A DNA stretch of 64,000 bases from Magnetospirillum sp. (GTDB taxonomy: Bacteria; Pseudomonadota; Alphaproteobacteria; CACIAM-22H2), in the NCBI GenBank assembly GCA_027532905.1, contig JAPZUA010000005.1, positions 1-64,000 on the forward strand. The letters are read 5' to 3'. Both the position numbers and the translations under genes were made by a program. The notes beneath the pieces were generated by a model. The model had not been told where the DNA came from, did no database searches, and saw nothing but the letters and a program-made list of their open reading frames with translations. Within the stretch, counting starts at the first letter, position 1. The number at the start of each line of letters is the position of its first letter. Positions 28,363 through 40,690 of this stretch are shown piece after piece.

Positions 28363-29484
28363 ATGAAAGATTTCCAGCTGACCAACGATGTTCTGGTCAA
28401 GTCGATCGAGCACAGCAATATCGCGCACACGATTTCGCGCGTCGACGGCGACATGGAACTGGTCTACGTGAACCAGGCTTTTCTCAATGTCACTGGGTAT
28501 TCGCGCGAAGAAGTCATCGGACGGAACTGCCGTTTCCTGCAAGGGCCCGGTACCGATCCCAATACGGTACGCGCCATTCGGGAGTCTGTCGCCGCTTTCG
28601 CGACGATCGAGATCGAGATCCTCAACTACCGAAAAGACGGCACAAGCTTCCCCAACCATCTGCGGATGGCGCCCGTCTACGATTCCGACGGCATCCTGAT
28701 CGCGTATTTGGGCGTGCAGTCGGACGTGACGCATTTCTACCAGAGCCAACGGTTCGAGCAGGAGCGCCAGAAGATGGAGGCGCTTGGCCGCATGGCGGGC
28801 AACGTAAGCCACGAAATCAAAAATACGCTGCAGCCGGTCAAGCTCATGAGCGACTTGCTGAAGGACTGGAAATCGCTGAGCGAAGACAAGCTCAAACGCT
28901 GCCTGGAGATTCTCACCGAAAACGTCGATATCGCCGACAAAGTCGCGCAGGACGTGCTGCGGTTCTCGCGCCGGGCAAGTTCAGAGATCGAAACCGTAGA
29001 CGCCGCCATCCTGCGGCAGGACGTCATCCGTTTCGTGCGAAATCTTCTGCAGGCGAACACTGGGTTCGAATTGAGCGTCGCAGCGACCTCATCCGAAGAC
29101 CAAATGTTCGTGCGCATCCGCCGAAACCACGTCTATCAGGTGCTCATCAATCTCGTGAACAATGCCATTTTTGCCATGGAAGGCGCGGGCAAGCTGACGC
29201 TTCTTTGGAATCGCGAAGACATCGGTCCGGCAAGGGCGCTGGAACTCAGTCTGAAAGTAGGCACATACCTCGTGATCGGAATTCAAGACACCGGTTGCGG
29301 CATCGAAGAGAAGAACATCGGCGAGATTTTCAGCCCGTTTTTCTCGACCAAACCCCCTGGCGAGGGAACCGGACTTGGACTTTCGGTCTCGTATCGAATG
29401 GCGCGGGAATGGGAAGGCACGCTCGCTTTCGTCAGCGAGTCGAAAGTCGGAAGCACTTTTTATATATATATTCCAATAGCTTGA
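28363..29484 (+). CDS. Blue-light LOV histidine kinase
   Basis: A 373-residue soluble sensor kinase. Residues about 15-125 are a canonical LOV domain: GRNCRFLQG holds the flavin-adduct Cys56, with the FMN-binding Asn/Gln set at NYRKDGT (N88), FPNHL (N98) and GVQSDVT (Q119). Blue light should form a cysteinyl-flavin adduct. A HisKA helix follows with phospho-acceptor H150 (GNVSHEIKNTLQP), then HATPase_c with N-box VLINLVNNAIFAM, DTGCGIEEKNIGEIF and GEGTGLGLSVSYR. It is followed by a single-domain response regulator and a chemoreceptor on the same strand. The 171 bases upstream hold its likely promoter. Confidence 0.93.
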   Translation: MKDFQLTNDVLVKSIEHSNIAHTISRVDGDMELVYVNQAFLNVTGYSREEVIGRNCRFLQGPGTDPNTVRAIRESVAAFATIEIEILNYRKDGTSFPNHLRMAPVYDSDGILIAYLGVQSDVTHFYQSQRFEQERQKMEALGRMAGNVSHEIKNTLQPVKLMSDLLKDWKSLSEDKLKRCLEILTENVDIADKVAQDVLRFSRRASSEIETVDAAILRQDVIRFVRNLLQANTGFELSVAATSSEDQMFVRIRRNHVYQVLINLVNNAIFAMEGAGKLTLLWNREDIGPARALELSLKVGTYLVIGIQDTGCGIEEKNIGEIFSPFFSTKPPGEGTGLGLSVSYRMAREWEGTLAFVSESKVGSTFYIYIPIA

Positions 29485-29595
29485 AAGATAATAGCGGGAA
29501 ATAGAAGATTTACTTCTTCGCGAAGTGGTTTATGTGCCAACAATGTACTAAGTTTATGTCTAACTCTGCGTTTTTAATTTTCCCAAGGAAGAAGA
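29485..29595 (+). promoter_or_regulatory. AT-rich gap with palindrome between LOV kinase and response regulator
   Basis: This 111-base gap is much more AT-rich than its surroundings. It holds the perfect 10-base palindrome CTTCGCGAAG (29516-29525), which can extend to a hairpin with ACTTC/GAAGT arms, and then a T-rich stretch running to the next RBS (AAGGAAGAAG before the ATG at 29596). It could be a separate promoter or operator for the response regulator and chemoreceptor, or an attenuating hairpin. I cannot choose between these. Confidence 0.4.
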
Positions 29596-29964
29596 ATGAA
29601 AAAGAAAATTTTGCTGATCGAAGACATGAAGGGGGTTCGCGAATCTCTCGAAATGATTCTCTCGATGCAGGATTACCAAGTCGAGATGGCTTCCGACGGT
29701 GCCGAAGGACTGCGCGCCGCAAAGGCAGCGAAATTCGATCTGATCATAACGGACATACTCATGCCGGAAATCGACGGCGCAGAAGTGATCATGGCGTTGC
29801 GGGCGGCCGGCAACAAGGTGCCGATCCTGGCGATTTCGGGCGGCGGCAACGGCGTTTCCGCCGCCATGGCGCTGACGCTGGCGAAGGAAAAGGCCGACGC
29901 CGTGCTCGAAAAACCGTTTTCGAAGGCGGATCTGCTGGCGGCCGTTCGGAACCTGATTCCCTAG
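29596..29964 (+). CDS. Single-domain CheY-like response regulator
   Basis: A 122-residue stand-alone receiver with a complete phosphorylation site: E9/D10 acidic pair, acceptor D53 (IITDILMPEIDGAEV), S81 (AISGGGNG) and K106 (LEKPFSK). With no output domain, it should act by protein-protein contact, like CheY at the flagellar motor, or as a phosphotransfer intermediate. It lies between the LOV kinase and a chemoreceptor, so it is the probable target of the kinase. Its RBS is strong (AAGGAAG). Confidence 0.92.
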   Translation: MKKKILLIEDMKGVRESLEMILSMQDYQVEMASDGAEGLRAAKAAKFDLIITDILMPEIDGAEVIMALRAAGNKVPILAISGGGNGVSAAMALTLAKEKADAVLEKPFSKADLLAAVRNLIP

Positions 29965-29982
29965 TATCTGGAGCTGCACAAA

Positions 29983-32022
29983 ATGGCGTTTTTTTACGGG
30001 TTTGCGATCGGGCAACGCGTGTCCGCACTCGCGGCGTTTCTGCTTTTCGTGCTCGGCATCGTCGGCGGCGTAAGCGTCTACAAGATGACCGAGATCGGGC
30101 ATGAGCTGGAGGAAGTCGACCGCTTCGAGCTGCCGCTCGCTCTTCTTGTCGAGCAAACGACGATCAGCCAGCTCGAGCAGGCGATGCTCTTCGAAAAGGC
30201 GCTGCGTTTCCGTTCGGTCGCCGTCGCGGTCGAGGGCGAAAACTTCGAATCGACTGTCCAGGCGTTCGCGAAATACGCCAAAAAGGCGGAAGCCGAACTG
30301 CTGCAAGCGCTCGGCCTGATCGACAAGGCGCTGGCGAGCGGTCCACCCGCCGCAGCCGCAACGCAACTCAAAGAATTCCAGCGCGCGCTCAAGGCGATCG
30401 AGGCAAAGCACAAAAGCTACGATTCGACTGTCGGCGAATTGTTTGCCGAGCTGTTGCGCTCCCCCGACGCCGCCGCGAGGCTGAATGCCCGGATCGTCGG
30501 CGTCGCGAAGGACCAGCAAGAACTGGTCAGATCGCTCGAAGATCTCGCCGAAAAGTCCGCGGCTTTTGTCTCGCACTCCATGCATCAAGCACTCGAGGAC
30601 GAAACGATCGCAAAAAACATCGTCGTTGCGGCAAGTCTCGCCGGGTTCTTGCTGGGAACGATGATCGCATTTTGGCTCGGCCGCAGCATCACCGTTCCGC
30701 TGAAGAACCTGACCAACGCGATGTCCGGTCTCGCGGACGGCAAGCTCGATACGCCGATCCCCGCGACCAAATTCAAAGACGAAGTCGACTCCATGGCGAA
30801 AGCGATGCTGGTGTTCCAAACCAACATGCTGCGTGCTGAAGCGCTCGAGGCGGAACAGACCGCTCTCAAAAACAAACAAGCGCAGCGCGCGAACGAACTC
30901 AACCAGCTCGTCGGAATATTCGGCTCCACGATCGGCGCGGTTTTCGCCCAGATTCTCGACGCGTCGAAGAAGATGGCCGGACAGTCGCAGAACATGCGCA
31001 GCAGCAGCGGCGACGCCCAAAGCATGGCGACGATGGTCGCCACGGAAGCCGAGGAATCGTCGGTCAACGCGCAAGCTTTGAGCGCCGCTGCCGAACAGAT
31101 GGTGGCCTCGATCCGGGAGATCTCGCGCCAAGTCAGCAAATCGTCGGAGGTCACGCGGCAGGCGGTCGAATTCGCCCAGAACTCCGAACGCGACGTGAAG
31201 GCGCTGCAGCAGACGTCGGCGGAGATCGGGCAGGTCGTTCAGATGATCACCGGCATCGCCGAACAGACGAACATGCTGGCGCTCAACGCGACGATCGAGG
31301 CGGCGCGGGCCGGGGAAGCCGGAAAAGGCTTTGCCGTCGTCGCGAGCGAGGTCAAGAATCTCGCCAAACAGACCGCGAGTGCCACGGACGCCGTGTCCAA
31401 GAAAGTACAGTCGATCCAAGACGCGTCCGTCCAGTCCGCCGCGTCGATCGCGAATATCGGCAAGATCGTCGGCAGCATCGACGAATACATCACCGTAATT
31501 GCCGCCGCGATCGAAGAACAGAATGCGACGACCGAGGAGATCTCCCGCAACGTCTCATTCGTCTCCGGCAGCGCATTGCGGGTCGCGGAGAACGTCCAGA
31601 AGATTCAGACGCAGTCGGGGGAGATCAGCGGCAACGCACAGACCGTCAACGCAAGCGCCGACCACATGGCCGGCGAAGCCGAAACGCTGAGTCGCGAGGT
31701 GAAAACCTTTCTTACCGCGATGCAGAATACGGGTGTCGACGACGACACGTACGAACCGCGCAAGATTTCCGCCAATGCCACTGCAAAGCTGGAAGTCGGT
31801 ACGTGGTCGGGACGCGCGTCCGAAGTTACGGCAGCCTTCGTGATCGTGGCGCCGCCGATCAACTGCGCCCTCGGCGAAGGGCTCGAGATTTCGATCGACG
31901 GGATCAACGAACGTTTGCGCGGCCGAGTGGCCAAGAACGAAAACGACAGGACGACGATCCAGTTCCCGCTCGACACGGAACATCTCGAAAAAATGCGCGG
32001 GCTCGTAAAGAAGATCGCCTGA
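29983..32022 (+). CDS. Methyl-accepting chemotaxis protein with C-terminal PilZ-like domain
   Basis: A 679-residue receptor: TM1 (about 9-33), a mostly helical periplasmic domain of about 175 residues, TM2 (about 207-230, IVVAASLAGFLLGTMIAFWLG), HAMP (VPLKNLTNAMSGLADGKLDTP), the MCP signalling domain with tip [20 protein letters not shown], and about 90 C-terminal residues of PilZ-like beta strands (ISANATAKLEVGTWSGRASE). The PilZ end lacks a clear R-x3-R / D-x-S-x-x-G pair, so c-di-GMP binding is uncertain. It begins 18 bases after the response regulator, so co-transcription with it is likely. Confidence 0.9.
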   Translation: MAFFYGFAIGQRVSALAAFLLFVLGIVGGVSVYKMTEIGHELEEVDRFELPLALLVEQTTISQLEQAMLFEKALRFRSVAVAVEGENFESTVQAFAKYAKKAEAELLQALGLIDKALASGPPAAAATQLKEFQRALKAIEAKHKSYDSTVGELFAELLRSPDAAARLNARIVGVAKDQQELVRSLEDLAEKSAAFVSHSMHQALEDETIAKNIVVAASLAGFLLGTMIAFWLGRSITVPLKNLTNAMSGLADGKLDTPIPATKFKDEVDSMAKAMLVFQTNMLRAEALEAEQTALKNKQAQRANELNQLVGIFGSTIGAVFAQILDASKKMAGQSQNMRSSSGDAQSMATMVATEAEESSVNAQALSAAAEQMVASIREISRQVSKSSEVTRQAVEFAQNSERDVKALQQTSAEIGQVVQMITGIAEQTNMLALNATIEAARAGEAGKGFAVVASEVKNLAKQTASATDAVSKKVQSIQDASVQSAASIANIGKIVGSIDEYITVIAAAIEEQNATTEEISRNVSFVSGSALRVAENVQKIQTQSGEISGNAQTVNASADHMAGEAETLSREVKTFLTAMQNTGVDDDTYEPRKISANATAKLEVGTWSGRASEVTAAFVIVAPPINCALGEGLEISIDGINERLRGRVAKNENDRTTIQFPLDTEHLEKMRGLVKKIA

Positions 32023-35121: not shown

Positions 35122-35194
35122 CACGAAAATACCACCTCTGTCAAACCAAAACAAATCTGTAGAATCTCGAAGATGACGCATGTATTTTGCGGCC

Positions 35195-35647
35195 ATGGAC
35201 GATATCGACAGAAAAATCATAGCGCATCTTCAGCAAAACGCGCGCGATTCCTATGCCGGGACCGCGGCAGCGGTCGGCCTGTCGGTGTCGGCCGTCAACG
35301 AGCGGCTCAAAAAGCTCGAGGCGGGCGGCATCATCACCGGCTGGTCGATCACGACGGATCCGGAAAAACTCGGGCGGCCGACCTTGGCATTTGTTTCGGT
35401 CGCCCTCGAGGGCACCAAACACGATGCGGGCTTCGTCGCTACGATGGCAGCCCTGCCCGACGTGCTCGAATGCCATCACGTGACGGGCGCGTGGTCGTAT
35501 CTGCTCAAGATCCGTGTCGCCACGAATTCCGCACTCGAGCGCGTGATCGTCGAGCGCATCAAACGCGTTCCAGGCGTGGCGCGCACGGAAACGGTGATTG
35601 CCCTCTCCTCGGCCAAGGATACGCATGTCGTGGCGTGCGGACCATGA
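35195..35647 (+). CDS. Lrp/AsnC-family transcriptional regulator
   Basis: A 150-residue regulator: N-terminal helix-turn-helix (DDIDRKIIAHLQQNARDSYA; LSVSAVNERLKKLEAGGIIT) and a C-terminal RAM/AsnC ligand-binding domain (VLECHHVTGAWSYLLKIRVA). These sense amino acids and often control adjacent transport genes; here it overlaps a LysE-type exporter by 4 bases (ATGA). An earlier in-frame ATG (35180) exists, but the family N-terminus begins at MDDIDRKI. The ligand is unknown; D- or N-acyl amino acids are suggested by the next genes. Confidence 0.9.
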   Translation: MDDIDRKIIAHLQQNARDSYAGTAAAVGLSVSAVNERLKKLEAGGIITGWSITTDPEKLGRPTLAFVSVALEGTKHDAGFVATMAALPDVLECHHVTGAWSYLLKIRVATNSALERVIVERIKRVPGVARTETVIALSSAKDTHVVACGP

Positions 35648-36270
35648 CCGGCATCGATGTCGATTTTTTGACGAAGGGCCTGATCTTGGGCGTGTCGATC
35701 GCGGCACCCATCGGGCCCATCGGCATTCTGTGCATCAGGCGCACGCTGTCGCACGGCGTGCTGGCCGGCATTGCGGGCGGGCTCGGCACGGCCTTGGCCG
35801 ACGGGCTCTACGCCGCCATCGCCGCTTTCGGCTTTGCCGCCTTGCTCGGCGATCTTCTGGCCGACAATCTGTGGTTCCGTCTCGGCGGTGCCGCCTTTCT
35901 GCTATGGCTCGGTTGGAAGGGCTGGAACGCCGAGCCTGCTGCGCGCGCCGCCTCGGTCGATGCGCGCACGCTTGCGGGCACATTTGCGGCGACGTTCCTC
36001 CTCACCGTCGCGAACCCCGCCACGATCGTCACGTTCCTCGGCCTGTTCCTCGCACTCGGGCTGGCCGATGCGGGCGATTCGAGCGCCGCTGGAATGTCGC
36101 TGGTCGCGGGCGTGGTGCTGGGCTCGTTCGGCTGGTGGATCGTGCTGTCGGGCACCATCGCTTCCTTGCGCGACCGGATCGGTCCAAACGCGTTCCGCTT
36201 CATCAACCGATCGGCGTCGCTGCTGCTGGTCGGGTTCGCGCTCTGGATGCTCGCCGACGCATTCGGTTGA
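35644..36270 (+). CDS. LysE/RhtB-family amino-acid exporter
   Basis: A 208-residue protein with six predicted helices. The N-terminal GLILGVSIAAPIGPIGILCI followed by RRTLSHGVLAGIAGGLGTAL is the family signature. Members export lysine, threonine, homoserine or related compounds. Its ATG overlaps the stop of the Lrp gene, an arrangement like LysG/LysE pairs in which the regulator senses the exported amino acid. It ends 5 bases from the convergent deacylase gene. Confidence 0.9.
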   Translation: MTGIDVDFLTKGLILGVSIAAPIGPIGILCIRRTLSHGVLAGIAGGLGTALADGLYAAIAAFGFAALLGDLLADNLWFRLGGAAFLLWLGWKGWNAEPAARAASVDARTLAGTFAATFLLTVANPATIVTFLGLFLALGLADAGDSSAAGMSLVAGVVLGSFGWWIVLSGTIASLRDRIGPNAFRFINRSASLLLVGFALWMLADAFG

Positions 36271-36275
36271 AGCGT

Positions 36276-37733
36276 TTAGGCAGCGTAATCGAGTGCTGCG
36301 CGATCGAGCGCCAAAGCACGGCCCGGACGTGCCCCTGTCGGCGCGCCATCCCGCCACACGCATGAGCCGTTAACGAACACGCGCTCGATGCCGCTCGCGG
36401 TGCGTTTGGGTTCGGCGAAACTCGCCTGGTCGAGGATCGCCGCCGCATCGAATACGGCGATGTCGGCGAAGGCCCCCGCCCGCAGCACGCCGCGATCTTT
36501 GAGGCCAAAGCGTTTGGCGGGCAGGCTCGTCATCTTGCGCACCGCCTCTTCGAGCGGGAACAGCTTGAGATCGCGCGCATAGTGGCCGAGCACGCGCGGG
36601 AACGTGCCCCACAGGCGCGGATGCGGATGCGTATCGTGCGGCAGCCCGTCCGAACCGATCATCGACTCAGGCCAGGCGAGCACGCGGCGCACATCGTCTT
36701 CGTCCATCGCGAAATAGATCGCCCCTGCCGGCTGCAGCTTGTCGCACATGGCCTCGATGCCGAGCCCGTGCTCGGCCGCAAGCTCGGCGAGGTCCCGCCC
36801 CTGGGCCTGCGGCATCGGTTTCGACCAGGCGATCAACGTGCGCGCGGCATCGCCGACGCGCGCCAAGGTCAGCACGGTCGAGGACGCGATGTAGGGATAC
36901 ATGTCGAGTGCGAGGCGCTGTTCGCGGCGCGCTTCGTCGAGGCGCGGCAGCGTGTTTTTGGTTTTGCCGTGATAAGGACGGCCTGCCGCTTTGTGGTGCG
37001 AGAGTACGACCGGCAAATCCGCGGCACGGCCGATCGTCAAAGCCTCCTCGACCGAGTCTTCGAGGAACGCGCCTTCGTCGCGCAGATGCGTGGCGTAGAT
37101 GCCCCCTGCTGCTGCCGCCACGCGCACGATCTCGATAATCTCGCGGGTGGAGGCCATGCGCGCCGGCGCATACGCCAAGCCCGTCGACAGGCCGAGCGCG
37201 CCGTCTGCCATTGCACCCTCGAGCAGATTCGCCATCGCCGCAATCTCGGCCGCATCCGCCGTTCGGTCGAGGGACGCCATTGTCTGCACGCGCAGCGCCG
37301 AATGGCCCACAAGCCCGATCGCATTAACGGCCGAAGGGGCCGTATCGAAAGCGCGCCGCCAGTCGGCAAAGCGCTTGAAGCGATAGGCGCTCTGCCCGCC
37401 CAGCAGATTGAGCGGCGGCGGCGGCGGGCCTTTGAGATCGACCGGTGCGAGCGACACGCCGCAATTGCCGGCCACGACGCTCGTCACACCCTGGCTCGTC
37501 TTCATCGGCATGTCGGGATAGTCGAGCAACGCCGCATCGTCGTGCGTGTGCGCATCGACGAAGCCGGGGGCAACGATGCGGCCCGTGCAGTCGATGCGCG
37601 ATCCGGCGTGTGCTGCACCCAGATCGCCGATGGCCGCAATGCGGCCGCCCGCGATGGCAATGTCGGTGCGGCGTGCGGCCGCGCCCGTGCCGTCGATGAG
37701 GTTGCCGCCGTGGAGGATCGTGTCGTAGTTCAT
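36276..37733 (-). CDS. N-acyl-D-amino-acid deacylase (D-aminoacylase) family amidohydrolase
   Basis: A 485-residue metal-dependent amidohydrolase. The metal-binding HTHDD lies in APGFVDAHTHDDAALL; the family-specific GNCGVSLAP carries the Cys ligand of D-aminoacylases; GIYATHLRDEG, LPVVLSHHKAAG and IGSDGLPHD supply the remaining ligands. It should hydrolyse N-acyl-D-amino acids. Substrate range (D-Glu, D-Asp or neutral) cannot be read. It is divergent from dgcN-dgcA across a 94-base gap, so a shared role in D-glutamate or N-acyl-amino-acid metabolism is likely. Confidence 0.88.
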   Translation of the reverse strand: MNYDTILHGGNLIDGTGAAARRTDIAIAGGRIAAIGDLGAAHAGSRIDCTGRIVAPGFVDAHTHDDAALLDYPDMPMKTSQGVTSVVAGNCGVSLAPVDLKGPPPPPLNLLGGQSAYRFKRFADWRRAFDTAPSAVNAIGLVGHSALRVQTMASLDRTADAAEIAAMANLLEGAMADGALGLSTGLAYAPARMASTREIIEIVRVAAAAGGIYATHLRDEGAFLEDSVEEALTIGRAADLPVVLSHHKAAGRPYHGKTKNTLPRLDEARREQRLALDMYPYIASSTVLTLARVGDAARTLIAWSKPMPQAQGRDLAELAAEHGLGIEAMCDKLQPAGAIYFAMDEDDVRRVLAWPESMIGSDGLPHDTHPHPRLWGTFPRVLGHYARDLKLFPLEEAVRKMTSLPAKRFGLKDRGVLRAGAFADIAVFDAAAILDQASFAEPKRTASGIERVFVNGSCVWRDGAPTGARPGRALALDRAALDYAA

Positions 37734-37827
37734 CGCACCAAACTATCGGAGGCGAAGGCCGTTGGAAAGCGGCAGCGAATGTCGTTTAATCGCCGACGTC
37801 TGCCCCCAAAACCAGGAGATCGATCCG

Positions 37828-38832
37828 GTGGAAATCAAGGCGCCTTACCTGCTCTTTCTCGGCGAAGCGGCCGATGCGCTCGCGGCCAAAACCTCGATCG
37901 GCGTGGCGCAATGGCGGCTGGAGAAATGTTTGGGCCAAGTGCGCCTGCCCGGCTGCAAGGCCGATGCAGGCGTGCCCGACATGGATGTGCGCGAGGCCGC
38001 ACGCAAAGGCGCCAAGACCATGATCGTGGGCGTGGTCAATCGCGGCGGCATCATCTCGCCCGCCTGGAGCAAGGTGCTGCTCGAAGCACTTGCCGCCGGG
38101 ATTGATCTTGCAAGCGGCCTCCATAATCGCCTGTCGGACGTGCCCGAGATCGCGGCAGCCGCCAAGAAACACGGCCGCCAGCTTTTCGACGTGCGCCATC
38201 CCGACCGCGAATTCCCGATCGCGACAGGCCTGAAGCGCAGCGGCAAGCGCGTGCTCACCGTCGGTACGGACTGTTCGATCGGCAAAATGTACACATCGCT
38301 GGCCCTTGAAAAAGCGCTGAAGGCGCTGGGGCTCAAAGCCACGTTCCGCGCCACCGGCCAGACCGGCATCTTGATTGCCGGTTCCGGCTGGTCGATCGAC
38401 GCGATCGTGTCGGACTTCGTGGCGGGGGCCGTGGAAACCCTGTCGCCCGCAGGGCCTGCCGATCATTGGGATGTGATCGAAGGCCAGGGCTCGCTGTTCC
38501 ATCCGAGCTATGCGGGCGTGACGCTCGCACTGATCCACGGGGCGCAGGCCGACGCGCTCGTGATGTGCCACGAGCCGGGCCGCCCGCACATGCGCGGCCT
38601 GCCGCACTACAAGCTGCCGCGCATCGAGGACTGCATTGCGGTCAACGTTGCACATGCGCGCCTCACGAACCCGAAGGCCAAATGCATCGGCGTGAGCCTG
38701 AATACGTCGAAAATGACGGCAAAGGCCGCCGAGCGCGCACTCAAATCGCTCGCCGACCGGCTCGGCCTGCCGGTCGAAGATCCGAGCCGAACGGGTGTGG
38801 CAAAACTCGCCAAGAAGCTGGCGCGGATCTGA
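37828..38832 (+). CDS. dgcN: DUF1611 family D-glutamate N-acetyltransferase DgcN
   Basis: A 334-residue DUF1611 protein. The C-terminal half has a P-loop-like GTDCSIGKMYTSLALEKAL, and the middle has MIVGVVNRGGIISPAW. In characterised bacteria DgcN acetylates D-glutamate and DgcA epimerises the product to N-acetyl-L-glutamate; the immediate partner here is a DgcA-type epimerase, which supports the assignment. I chose GTG at 37828 because AGGAG lies 9 bases upstream; the ATG at 37762 adds 22 residues of unlikely composition. The biochemical role rests on family knowledge. Confidence 0.8.
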   Translation: MEIKAPYLLFLGEAADALAAKTSIGVAQWRLEKCLGQVRLPGCKADAGVPDMDVREAARKGAKTMIVGVVNRGGIISPAWSKVLLEALAAGIDLASGLHNRLSDVPEIAAAAKKHGRQLFDVRHPDREFPIATGLKRSGKRVLTVGTDCSIGKMYTSLALEKALKALGLKATFRATGQTGILIAGSGWSIDAIVSDFVAGAVETLSPAGPADHWDVIEGQGSLFHPSYAGVTLALIHGAQADALVMCHEPGRPHMRGLPHYKLPRIEDCIAVNVAHARLTNPKAKCIGVSLNTSKMTAKAAERALKSLADRLGLPVEDPSRTGVAKLAKKLARI

Positions 38833-39815
38833 TGCGCCGCACGCTCGAGGTCGCGCGCGAAGTCTGGCCGATCCGCGGCACGTTCCGCATCTCGCGCGGC
38901 AGCCGCACCGAAGCCGTGGTGCTTTCCGTGCGTATCGCAGCGGCAGGCCATGCCGGGCGCGGCGAATGCGTGCCCTATGCGCGCTACGGCGAAACGATCG
39001 AAAGTTCAATGGCGGCGATCGAAGCCATGCGCAATCTCGTCGAAAGCGGGGCCGACCGTGACGCCTTGGGCCAGGCGATGCCGGCAGGGGCTGCACGCAA
39101 CGCGCTCGACTGCGCGCTTTGGGATCTCGAAGCCAAACAAGCGGGCAAGCGCGTGTGGCAGCTTGCAGGCCTGCCCGATCCGGGTGCCGTTGTCACCGCG
39201 TTCACGCTATCGGTCGACACGCCGGAGAAGATGGGCGAAGCCGCAGCTTCTGCTGCCGCACGCCCACTTTTGAAAATCAAACTCACCGGCGAAGGCGATC
39301 TCGAGCGTGTAGCGGCCGTGCGCAAAGCGGCCCCCGCCTCGCGCCTGGTCGTCGATGCCAACGAAGCATGGGACATCGCGGCCTATACGAAATTCGCCCC
39401 GGCCCTTGCGGCACTCGGCGTCGATCTGATCGAACAGCCGCTGCATGCCGAGCGCGACGGCGATCTTGCCAAGGTCGCCCACCCTGTCCCCGTCTGCGCC
39501 GACGAAGCGTGCCACGACGTGGCCTCGCTCGCCCATCTCAAGGGCAAGTACGAAGCGGTCAATCTCAAGCTCGACAAGACGGGCGGCCTCACCGAAGCCT
39601 TGAAACTGCGCGCGGCCGCGCGCACCGCCGGCTTCAAGATCATGGTCGGCTGCATGGTCGGCACGTCTTTGTCGATGGCGCCCGCCCATCTCGTGGCGCA
39701 AGGAGCCGAATGGGTCGATATCGACGGCCCGCTGCTGCTCGCAAAAGACCGCGCACCCGGTCTCGTCTATCACGGCAGCTCGGTCGAACCGCCCGACGCG
39801 GCGCTTTGGGGCTAA
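38832..39815 (+). CDS. dgcA: Enolase-superfamily epimerase DgcA (N-acetyl-glutamate / dipeptide epimerase)
   Basis: A 327-residue member of the L-Ala-D/L-Glu epimerase group. The barrel shows the catalytic K-x-K (LLKIKLTGEG), metal ligands in VVDANEAW, LIEQPLHAE and CADEACHDV, and the second acid/base Lys in VNLKLDKTGG. In the DgcN-DgcA route it converts N-acetyl-D-glutamate to the L form; dipeptide epimerisation in murein recycling is the alternative. Its ATG shares one base with the dgcN stop (TGATG), so the two are translationally coupled. Confidence 0.87.
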   Translation: MRRTLEVAREVWPIRGTFRISRGSRTEAVVLSVRIAAAGHAGRGECVPYARYGETIESSMAAIEAMRNLVESGADRDALGQAMPAGAARNALDCALWDLEAKQAGKRVWQLAGLPDPGAVVTAFTLSVDTPEKMGEAAASAAARPLLKIKLTGEGDLERVAAVRKAAPASRLVVDANEAWDIAAYTKFAPALAALGVDLIEQPLHAERDGDLAKVAHPVPVCADEACHDVASLAHLKGKYEAVNLKLDKTGGLTEALKLRAAARTAGFKIMVGCMVGTSLSMAPAHLVAQGAEWVDIDGPLLLAKDRAPGLVYHGSSVEPPDAALWG

Positions 39816-40690
39816 AGCGGCGCGCCGAAACGCGCGATCTTCGCACCCGCCACATCCACGCGCAGGCGCAGGAGCGTCCCGTTCTGCGTGGGTCCGCTGC
39901 GATTGCTCGTAAGCGAGGTCACGTAGAGCGTCTTGCCGTCGGGCCCGCCGAAACACGGCATCGTCGGCGCTTCGACGGGCAATTGCAGAATGCGGTCGAT
40001 GCGCCCGTCGGGGGCAATGCGGTTCAAGCGCCCGGCCGACACGCCCGCACTCCAATAGAAACCTTCGGCGTCGCACGCCGCCCCATCGGGCCTGCCGTCG
40101 GCCTCTTCAAGCATGCGGATCGTCTTCTGGCCCGACATCGCGCCGGTGCGCGCGTCGAAATCGTAGGTCTGCACGAAACGCTGGCGGCTGTCGGAATGGA
40201 ACATGCGCTTGCCGTCCGGGCTCCAGGCAAGTCCGTTCGAAACGATCAGCCCGTCGCGCATGCGCGTGGACACGCCCTTTGCATCGACGCGGTAGAGAGC
40301 GGCCACGGGCTGCTTCTCGGGCCGGTCGTCCATGCTGCCGACCCAGAACGCACCGTCCGGGCCGACCTTGCCGTCATTGAGGCGATTGCCCGGCTGATCG
40401 GGCTCGGGATGCACGAGGAATTCGAGCTTTTGCGTCGCGAAATCGAACAGATGCACGCCCGAGCGCAGGGCCACCACCGCACGCCCATCGGCGCACAGGC
40501 CGAAACTGCCGATCGCACTCGGCATGTCGTAGCGCTGCAGCTTGCGGCCCGCCGGATCGTAGCGATAGAGGCACGGGGCCAGGATATCGAGGAACAGCAA
40601 GGTACCGCTCGCATCGTCCCAGCACGGGCCTTCGCCGACTTTGAGCGGCGTATCAATCAGGATTTCGACGTCCGGCGTTTCGATCTGCAT
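39812..40690 (-). CDS. SMP-30/gluconolactonase-family protein
   Basis: A 292-residue six-bladed beta-propeller. GEGPCWDDASGTLLFLDI supplies the metal Glu, RLNDGKVGPDGAFWVGSM the Asn and Asp, and NGLAWSPDGKRMFHSDSRQR the remaining ligands. These enzymes open sugar lactones such as gluconolactone or arabinonolactone. Its 3' end overlaps dgcA by 4 bases in convergent orientation. No sugar dehydrogenase is adjacent, so the substrate is unclear. Confidence 0.88.
   Translation of the reverse strand: MQIETPDVEILIDTPLKVGEGPCWDDASGTLLFLDILAPCLYRYDPAGRKLQRYDMPSAIGSFGLCADGRAVVALRSGVHLFDFATQKLEFLVHPEPDQPGNRLNDGKVGPDGAFWVGSMDDRPEKQPVAALYRVDAKGVSTRMRDGLIVSNGLAWSPDGKRMFHSDSRQRFVQTYDFDARTGAMSGQKTIRMLEEADGRPDGAACDAEGFYWSAGVSAGRLNRIAPDGRIDRILQLPVEAPTMPCFGGPDGKTLYVTSLTSNRSGPTQNGTLLRLRVDVAGAKIARFGAPL

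Follow-up and report, generated by a model that had tools for sequence, protein, structure and literature searches.

Gene content of the locus

The stretch of DNA analysed here (the window, 64,000 nucleotides in full) opens contig JAPZUA010000005.1 of a Magnetospirillum sp. genome, and the system in question is a group of five genes in which dgcN and dgcA, encoding the enzymes of the D-glutamate (D-Glu) catabolic pathway DgcN-DgcA, stand next to a divergent gene for an N-acyl-D-amino-acid deacylase and to an lrp–lysE pair. The pathway itself is already known; its founding paper is that of Yu et al. (2023, ISME J). As far as excerpts of three further papers go, acidic D-amino acids and their amides are racemised irreversibly by a pathway whose key gene is dgcN (PMC12363236), the Dgc pathway is the likely main D-Glu route in a Shewanella (PMC10845958), and the same pathway is also treated in PMC11747546.

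The first gene of the pathway, dgcN (37828..38832, + strand), encodes a D-glutamate N-acetyltransferase (DUF1611): its product scores 528.4 bits against NF041892, above the curated equivalog cut-off of 480 and over the whole profile (1-326 of 326), and its nearest solved structure is 7xrj (404 bits). The start codon is GTG, with AGGAG ahead of it. The second gene, dgcA (38832..39815, + strand), overlaps the end of dgcN by 1 base (TGATG) and encodes an N-acetyl-D-Glu racemase of the enolase superfamily, which exceeds the curated equivalog cut-off of NF042940 (498.4 bits vs 400) but remains under that of the dipeptide (L-Ala-D/L-Glu) epimerase model (NF011708, 325.8 vs 343). Its nearest solved structures are 4gfi (339 bits) and then the L-Ala-D/L-Glu epimerase 1jpd. 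The window thus resembles the known DgcN-DgcA system in that both enzymes lie above the NCBIfam cut-offs and their genes are adjacent and co-oriented.

Opposite dgcN, across a divergent intergenic region of 94 bases (37734..37827), lies the gene for the N-acyl-D-amino-acid deacylase (36276..37733, − strand), a subtype V amidohydrolase of the D-aminoacylase family. Its best solved relative is the D-aminoacylase of Alcaligenes faecalis (1m7j, 545 bits), followed by 9g5m (450 bits), OngB (9kb1, 419 bits) and an N-acyl-D-glutamate deacylase (3gip, 409 bits); a literature search found no paper naming structures 9g5m or 9gv8.

Beyond the deacylase gene, and on the + strand, are lrp and lysE. The former, an Lrp/AsnC-family regulator gene (PF13404 and PF01037 above cut-off), extends over 35195..35647 when counted from the second, likelier ATG, another in-frame ATG being present at 35180. 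The latter (35644..36270) encodes a LysE/RhtB-type amino-acid exporter (PF01810, 81 bits vs a cut-off of 25.6). The two genes share 4 bases (ATGA, 35644-35647), as the initial annotation had it, and its coordinates and names for all five genes likewise stand. On the other side, an SMP-30/gluconolactonase-like gene (39812-40690, − strand) is convergent with dgcA and shares 4 bases with its 3' end. Comparison with three congeners gives dN/dS values of 0.06-0.25 across all five genes (0.08-0.14 for lrp), which indicates purifying selection.

Conservation within the genus

DgcN was found in 14 of the 31 genomes searched, including all 11 of the genus. The deacylase gene is divergent to dgcN in 10/10 congeners. 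Seven of them have a gap of 72-118 bases and three one of about 1250 bases; in L018, the one of these three loci that was scanned, the larger gap is filled by an EAL response-regulator gene. The lrp–lysE pair lies beyond the deacylase gene in 7/7 congeners whose contigs reach that far. The three remaining contigs end too early, L017 having 981 bases past the deacylase gene and no lysE match within them. The five-gene set is kept in all seven assessable congeners, and this with deacylase identities as low as 65%. Among 50 sequences, the deacylases of the genus form one clade (support 100/99).

Distribution outside the genus

To describe dgcN loci outside the genus, we used the best 80 of 371 named DgcN relatives minus eight congeners, plus L028, i.e. 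73 loci with flanks of at most 10 kb; at 54 of them the upstream flank is 4 kb or longer. While dgcA was found at 67 of these loci, neither the deacylase nor LysE was found at any of the 73, and Lrp was found at a single one, 7.9 kb away. A D-amino-acid transaminase gene is present at 25/73 and is the third gene in 23. The genus differs in this respect: a transaminase was not found as third gene at the eight named congener loci, some of them short, and a divergent deacylase gene is present instead.

Among plasmid-borne dgcN genes (8 of 81 records sampled), a deacylase was found at 0/8. In two of the eight, on Roseobacteraceae plasmids (Ruegeria TM1040 and Tritonibacter), a LysE/Lrp pair lies divergent to dgcN-dgcA at a distance of 2.4-2.9 kb upstream. 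In the Ruegeria locus L264 and in that of Vibrio tritonius (L266), the dgcN-dgcA operon runs on into a D-amino-acid transaminase gene, and in V. tritonius alr and a gene for a sodium:alanine symporter are divergent to the operon. The plasmids of Sinorhizobium, Bosea, Indioceanicola and Azospirillum (L265, L267, L268 and L270) carry dgcN homologues 52-57% identical, with no dgcA within 7-8 kb; a DgcN relative can therefore stand without an adjoining DgcA.

The reciprocal comparison started from the deacylase, which has matches (E 1e-100 or better) in 70 of the 385 genomes of the class. Neither dgcN nor dgcA was found near any of 40 non-genus deacylase places (of 74 listed; flanks up to about 7 kb), and lrp plus lysE were near one, 5-6 kb away. 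No steady partner emerged either: no Pfam family occurred in more than 4 of 100 neighbouring open reading frames (ORFs), these being 100 of 148 candidates, from crude gene calls. Three of 29 records of plasmid D-aminoacylases showed the gene near a D-amino acid dehydrogenase gene and an ABC transporter in the first case, in a TRAP transporter operon in the second, and together with genes for an MFS transporter and for an amidase in the third. As to the Lrp-LysE pair, its adjacency is that of other regulator-exporter pairs (at 7 of 28 other LysE loci, an lrp gene is present within roughly 1.5 kb of flank); what differs in the genus is its place beside dgcNA, which outside the genus was seen only in Ruegeria and Tritonibacter.

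The position of a deacylase gene opposite dgcNA, specific to the genus, is new in the data examined. A literature search found no report of a dgcNA/deacylase pairing, the paper by Yu et al. being outside its reach, nor any paper that joins DUF1611/dgcN with D-aminoacylase, N-acylamino acid racemase with D-aminoacylase, or DgcR with D-Glu; in the 20 papers listed, of 6,387, for any two of deacylase, Lrp and LysE, the deacylase is not mentioned. Conservation of the whole group in relatives, a check named by the initial annotation, holds within the genus (deacylase in 10/10, lrp–lysE in 7/7 assessable) and fails beyond it. There, the distribution is the scattered one that the initial annotation had named as speaking against its proposal, with the deacylase and LysE missing from all 73 non-genus loci. 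Its statement that described dgcN-dgcA operons lack such neighbours was nearly right, the two Roseobacteraceae plasmids being the departure from it.

Identity and specificity of the deacylase

The catalytic set of the deacylase is intact (H62, H64, C91, H216, H246, K248, D362 and R373). What characterizes a D-aminoacylase, namely the Cys/His/His metal site of subtype V, the catalytic Asp and the alpha-carboxylate anchors, is present (C91, H216, H246, D362, K248 and R373), with residue roles as described in excerpts of PMC12017989, and is the same in the D-aminoacylases of A. faecalis (1m7j) and Bordetella bronchiseptica (3gip). The side-chain pocket, by contrast, differs: Phe191, Met254, Leu298 and Met346 of the A. 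faecalis enzyme, as given in the source excerpts, correspond to A187, A250, G294 and A342 in the window. Two of the ten deacylases of the genus have A in column 187 and the other eight have F; in column 294 the residues are G, G, R, R, D, D, A, L, A and A.

According to the same excerpts (PMC12017989), Arg295 of the Bordetella enzyme (BbDam) contacts the side-chain carboxylate of Glu. When the L027 deacylase is aligned with 3gip, the column of Arg295 is that of Arg292 of the window enzyme, which is invariant in the congeners. However, the residue columns do not settle the use of N-acetyl-D-Glu because the A. faecalis enzyme (AfDam) also has an Arg in the Arg292 column, its Leu298 falling in the column of G294. 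The deacylase would undo the step of DgcN if their substrates match, as the initial annotation put forward, and sequence speaks neither for nor against such a conflict. A divide between Glu-specific and other deacylases based on G294 (window) versus R294 (congener) was considered and dropped, since Bordetella Arg295 aligns with the invariant Arg292; the published equivalence of Arg295 with A. faecalis Leu298 is, in the portions of PMC12017989 used here, a spatial one and not one by sequence.

The residues of OngB are not retained: where OngB has Ser292 and Gln298, the window has Thr286 and Arg292, the OngB residues named in PMC12017989 being placed by a constant offset of 6 and not from an alignment. 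Among the functions considered for the deacylase, the sequence argues only against that of a GlcNAc1A deacetylase.

The deacylase gene is moreover an intragenic mosaic. Its core (about 36709-37521, residues 71-342), which includes the pocket residues, occurs as one allele common to the window and L024 and another common to L027 and L025; sites at which the alleles split amount to 98/600 in 36800-37399, as compared with 19/1095 in 37734-38832. Despite its different deacylase core, L027 has a dgcN that is 96% identical to that of the window. The two core alleles point to homologous exchange within the genus. Congeners that carry different deacylase cores at one locus form a natural set for working out D-aminoacylase specificity.

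Supply of D-glutamate in the genus

The usual sources of D-Glu are MurI and D-amino-acid aminotransferase, as stated in an excerpt of PMC8788868. No match to MurI (TIGR00067) was found in any of the 11 genus genomes, several of which are incomplete (74-98%); in a control search the model matched in 10 of 14 genomes, over the cut-off in eight. MurD is over its cut-off in 10/10 genus genomes searched (354-373 bits vs 212), and the MurD found may be of the MurD2 kind. The D-amino-acid transaminase model NF005209 is exceeded in 10/11, the miss being the genome that is 74% complete; in the genome of the window the transaminase reaches 398 bits (cut-off 320), and it narrowly misses the cut-off of TIGR01121 (267 vs 277). 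Because a MurI match is lacking while MurD and a D-amino-acid transaminase are present, D-Glu is probably made by transamination in the genus.

Neither MurI nor DgcN has a match in two genomes of the same family (G011 and G012), which do have the transaminase; it follows that DgcN-DgcA is not needed for life without MurI. The genome of the window also contains nine PF01177 racemase-like places, eight of them over the cut-off. Among ORFs chosen by position and length at all eight, none matched a glutamate racemase model, and a single one gave a weak match to the aspartate racemase model (23 bits vs a cut-off of 93). Finally, the same genome has ArgJ and two ArgE-family genes over their cut-offs.

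Functional interpretation

We favour, with some reserve, the reading that this is a D-amino-acid salvage locus. The data show which genes are there, how they are arranged and conserved, and which of the families searched for are found or missing; substrates, direction of flux and any regulation are inferred. DgcN would N-acetylate D-Glu and DgcA would invert N-acetyl-D-Glu to N-acetyl-L-Glu, the conversion presumably being finished by ArgE/M20-type deacetylases or by the ArgJ arginine route, both encoded elsewhere. The divergent D-aminoacylase would release D-amino acids from N-acyl-D-amino acids, and Lrp-LysE would act as a neighbouring, amino-acid-responsive export pair. With wall D-Glu probably formed from 2-oxoglutarate and D-Ala by the transaminase, DgcN-DgcA would constitute a direct link from D-Glu to L-Glu, which is otherwise the role of MurI; the transaminase working in reverse (to 2-oxoglutarate), or oxidative enzymes, could also drain D-Glu. 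The Dgc pathway is thereby placed in bacteria whose wall D-Glu seems to arise with no glutamate racemase involved, and for which DgcN-DgcA would be a direct return path towards L-Glu. All in all, the pathway is known and its neighbour lineage-specific, which looks like a modest and mostly ordinary variation.

Several observations weigh against a functional tie between the parts. In the congener loci that reach far enough, the conserved order runs on upstream into glyQ, glyS and ppdK, which have no evident connection with the pathway, and unrelated genes are inserted between the parts (in L018 those for an EAL response regulator and for a GST, in L023 a SnoaL-like one). A search in five genomes, a weak test, revealed no 15-mer common to the region upstream of lrp and the gap between the deacylase gene and dgcN beyond what shuffling yields: of 60 simple shuffles, 4 to 59 did as well as the best matches, which were 10 to 12. 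Against the salvage reading itself, no gene for D-Glu uptake was seen among the classified neighbours of the locus. The pocket of the deacylase differs among congeners with nearly the same dgcN, which is not like a fixed partner; a substrate-binding half exchanged freely is not what a partner locked to DgcN would predict. As for the supply of D-Glu, the eight PF01177 places could include a glutamate racemase other than MurI, and MurD2/MurL, as described in part of PMC8788868, is an alternative D-Glu route known also from some Alphaproteobacteria.

The initial annotation had gone further and proposed a joint module for sensing, export and conversion. This proposal is not borne out, in view of a search that revealed no shared operator-like site, the insertions between the parts and a synteny that also keeps glyQS and ppdK; the deacylase or Lrp-LysE may at most be functionally coupled with DgcN-DgcA. 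The same three observations, together with the want of a steady partner for the deacylase elsewhere, favour plain synteny, in which the deacylase gene and lrp–lysE would be functionally unconnected to dgcN-dgcA and kept by block inheritance in the genus. We regard this explanation as tenable if somewhat doubtful, given that the conserved order goes no further than dgcA in congeners less closely related, which lack the genes downstream in the window, and that the five-gene set survives in every assessable congener while the deacylase diverges.

The salvage reading also has to be set against schemes in which the locus serves the cell wall. It is conceivable, if improbable, that in this lineage without MurI DgcA and the D-aminoacylase connect the N-acetyl-L-Glu of arginine synthesis with wall D-Glu by a second route that runs both ways; expression of one or the other divergent arm would then decide whether the locus drains or supplies D-Glu. 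A flux in the reverse direction only, with DgcA and the D-aminoacylase making D-Glu from N-acetyl-L-Glu for peptidoglycan, in the way that N-acylamino-acid racemase and D-aminoacylase are used as a pair, is likewise improbable. It would accord with the MurI and MurD searches (0/11 and 10/10) and with the racemase and deacylase genes sharing the locus in all ten congeners, but the transaminase is found in nearly all genus genomes, G011 and G012 manage with it and without matches to MurI or DgcN, and dgcN is co-oriented with dgcA and would have no role in that direction. That the deacylase is an OngB-type enzyme, which would deacetylate GlcNAc1A from oxidised chitin together with the SMP-30 lactonase, is hardly credible: OngB is of the same fold family and the lactonase-like gene overlaps dgcA, but D-aminoacylase scores higher (545 vs 419 bits), the OngB residues are replaced, and the lactonase-like gene is present in only three of nine congener loci, the other six lacking it over 7.3-9.3 kb beyond dgcN.

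Elsewhere in the window, three genes at 28363-32022, one of which was read as methyl-accepting chemotaxis-like, lie between a conserved 79-aa ORF and cydB. Nine congener loci gave no match to them, and the genes that flank them adjoin in L024 and L027.

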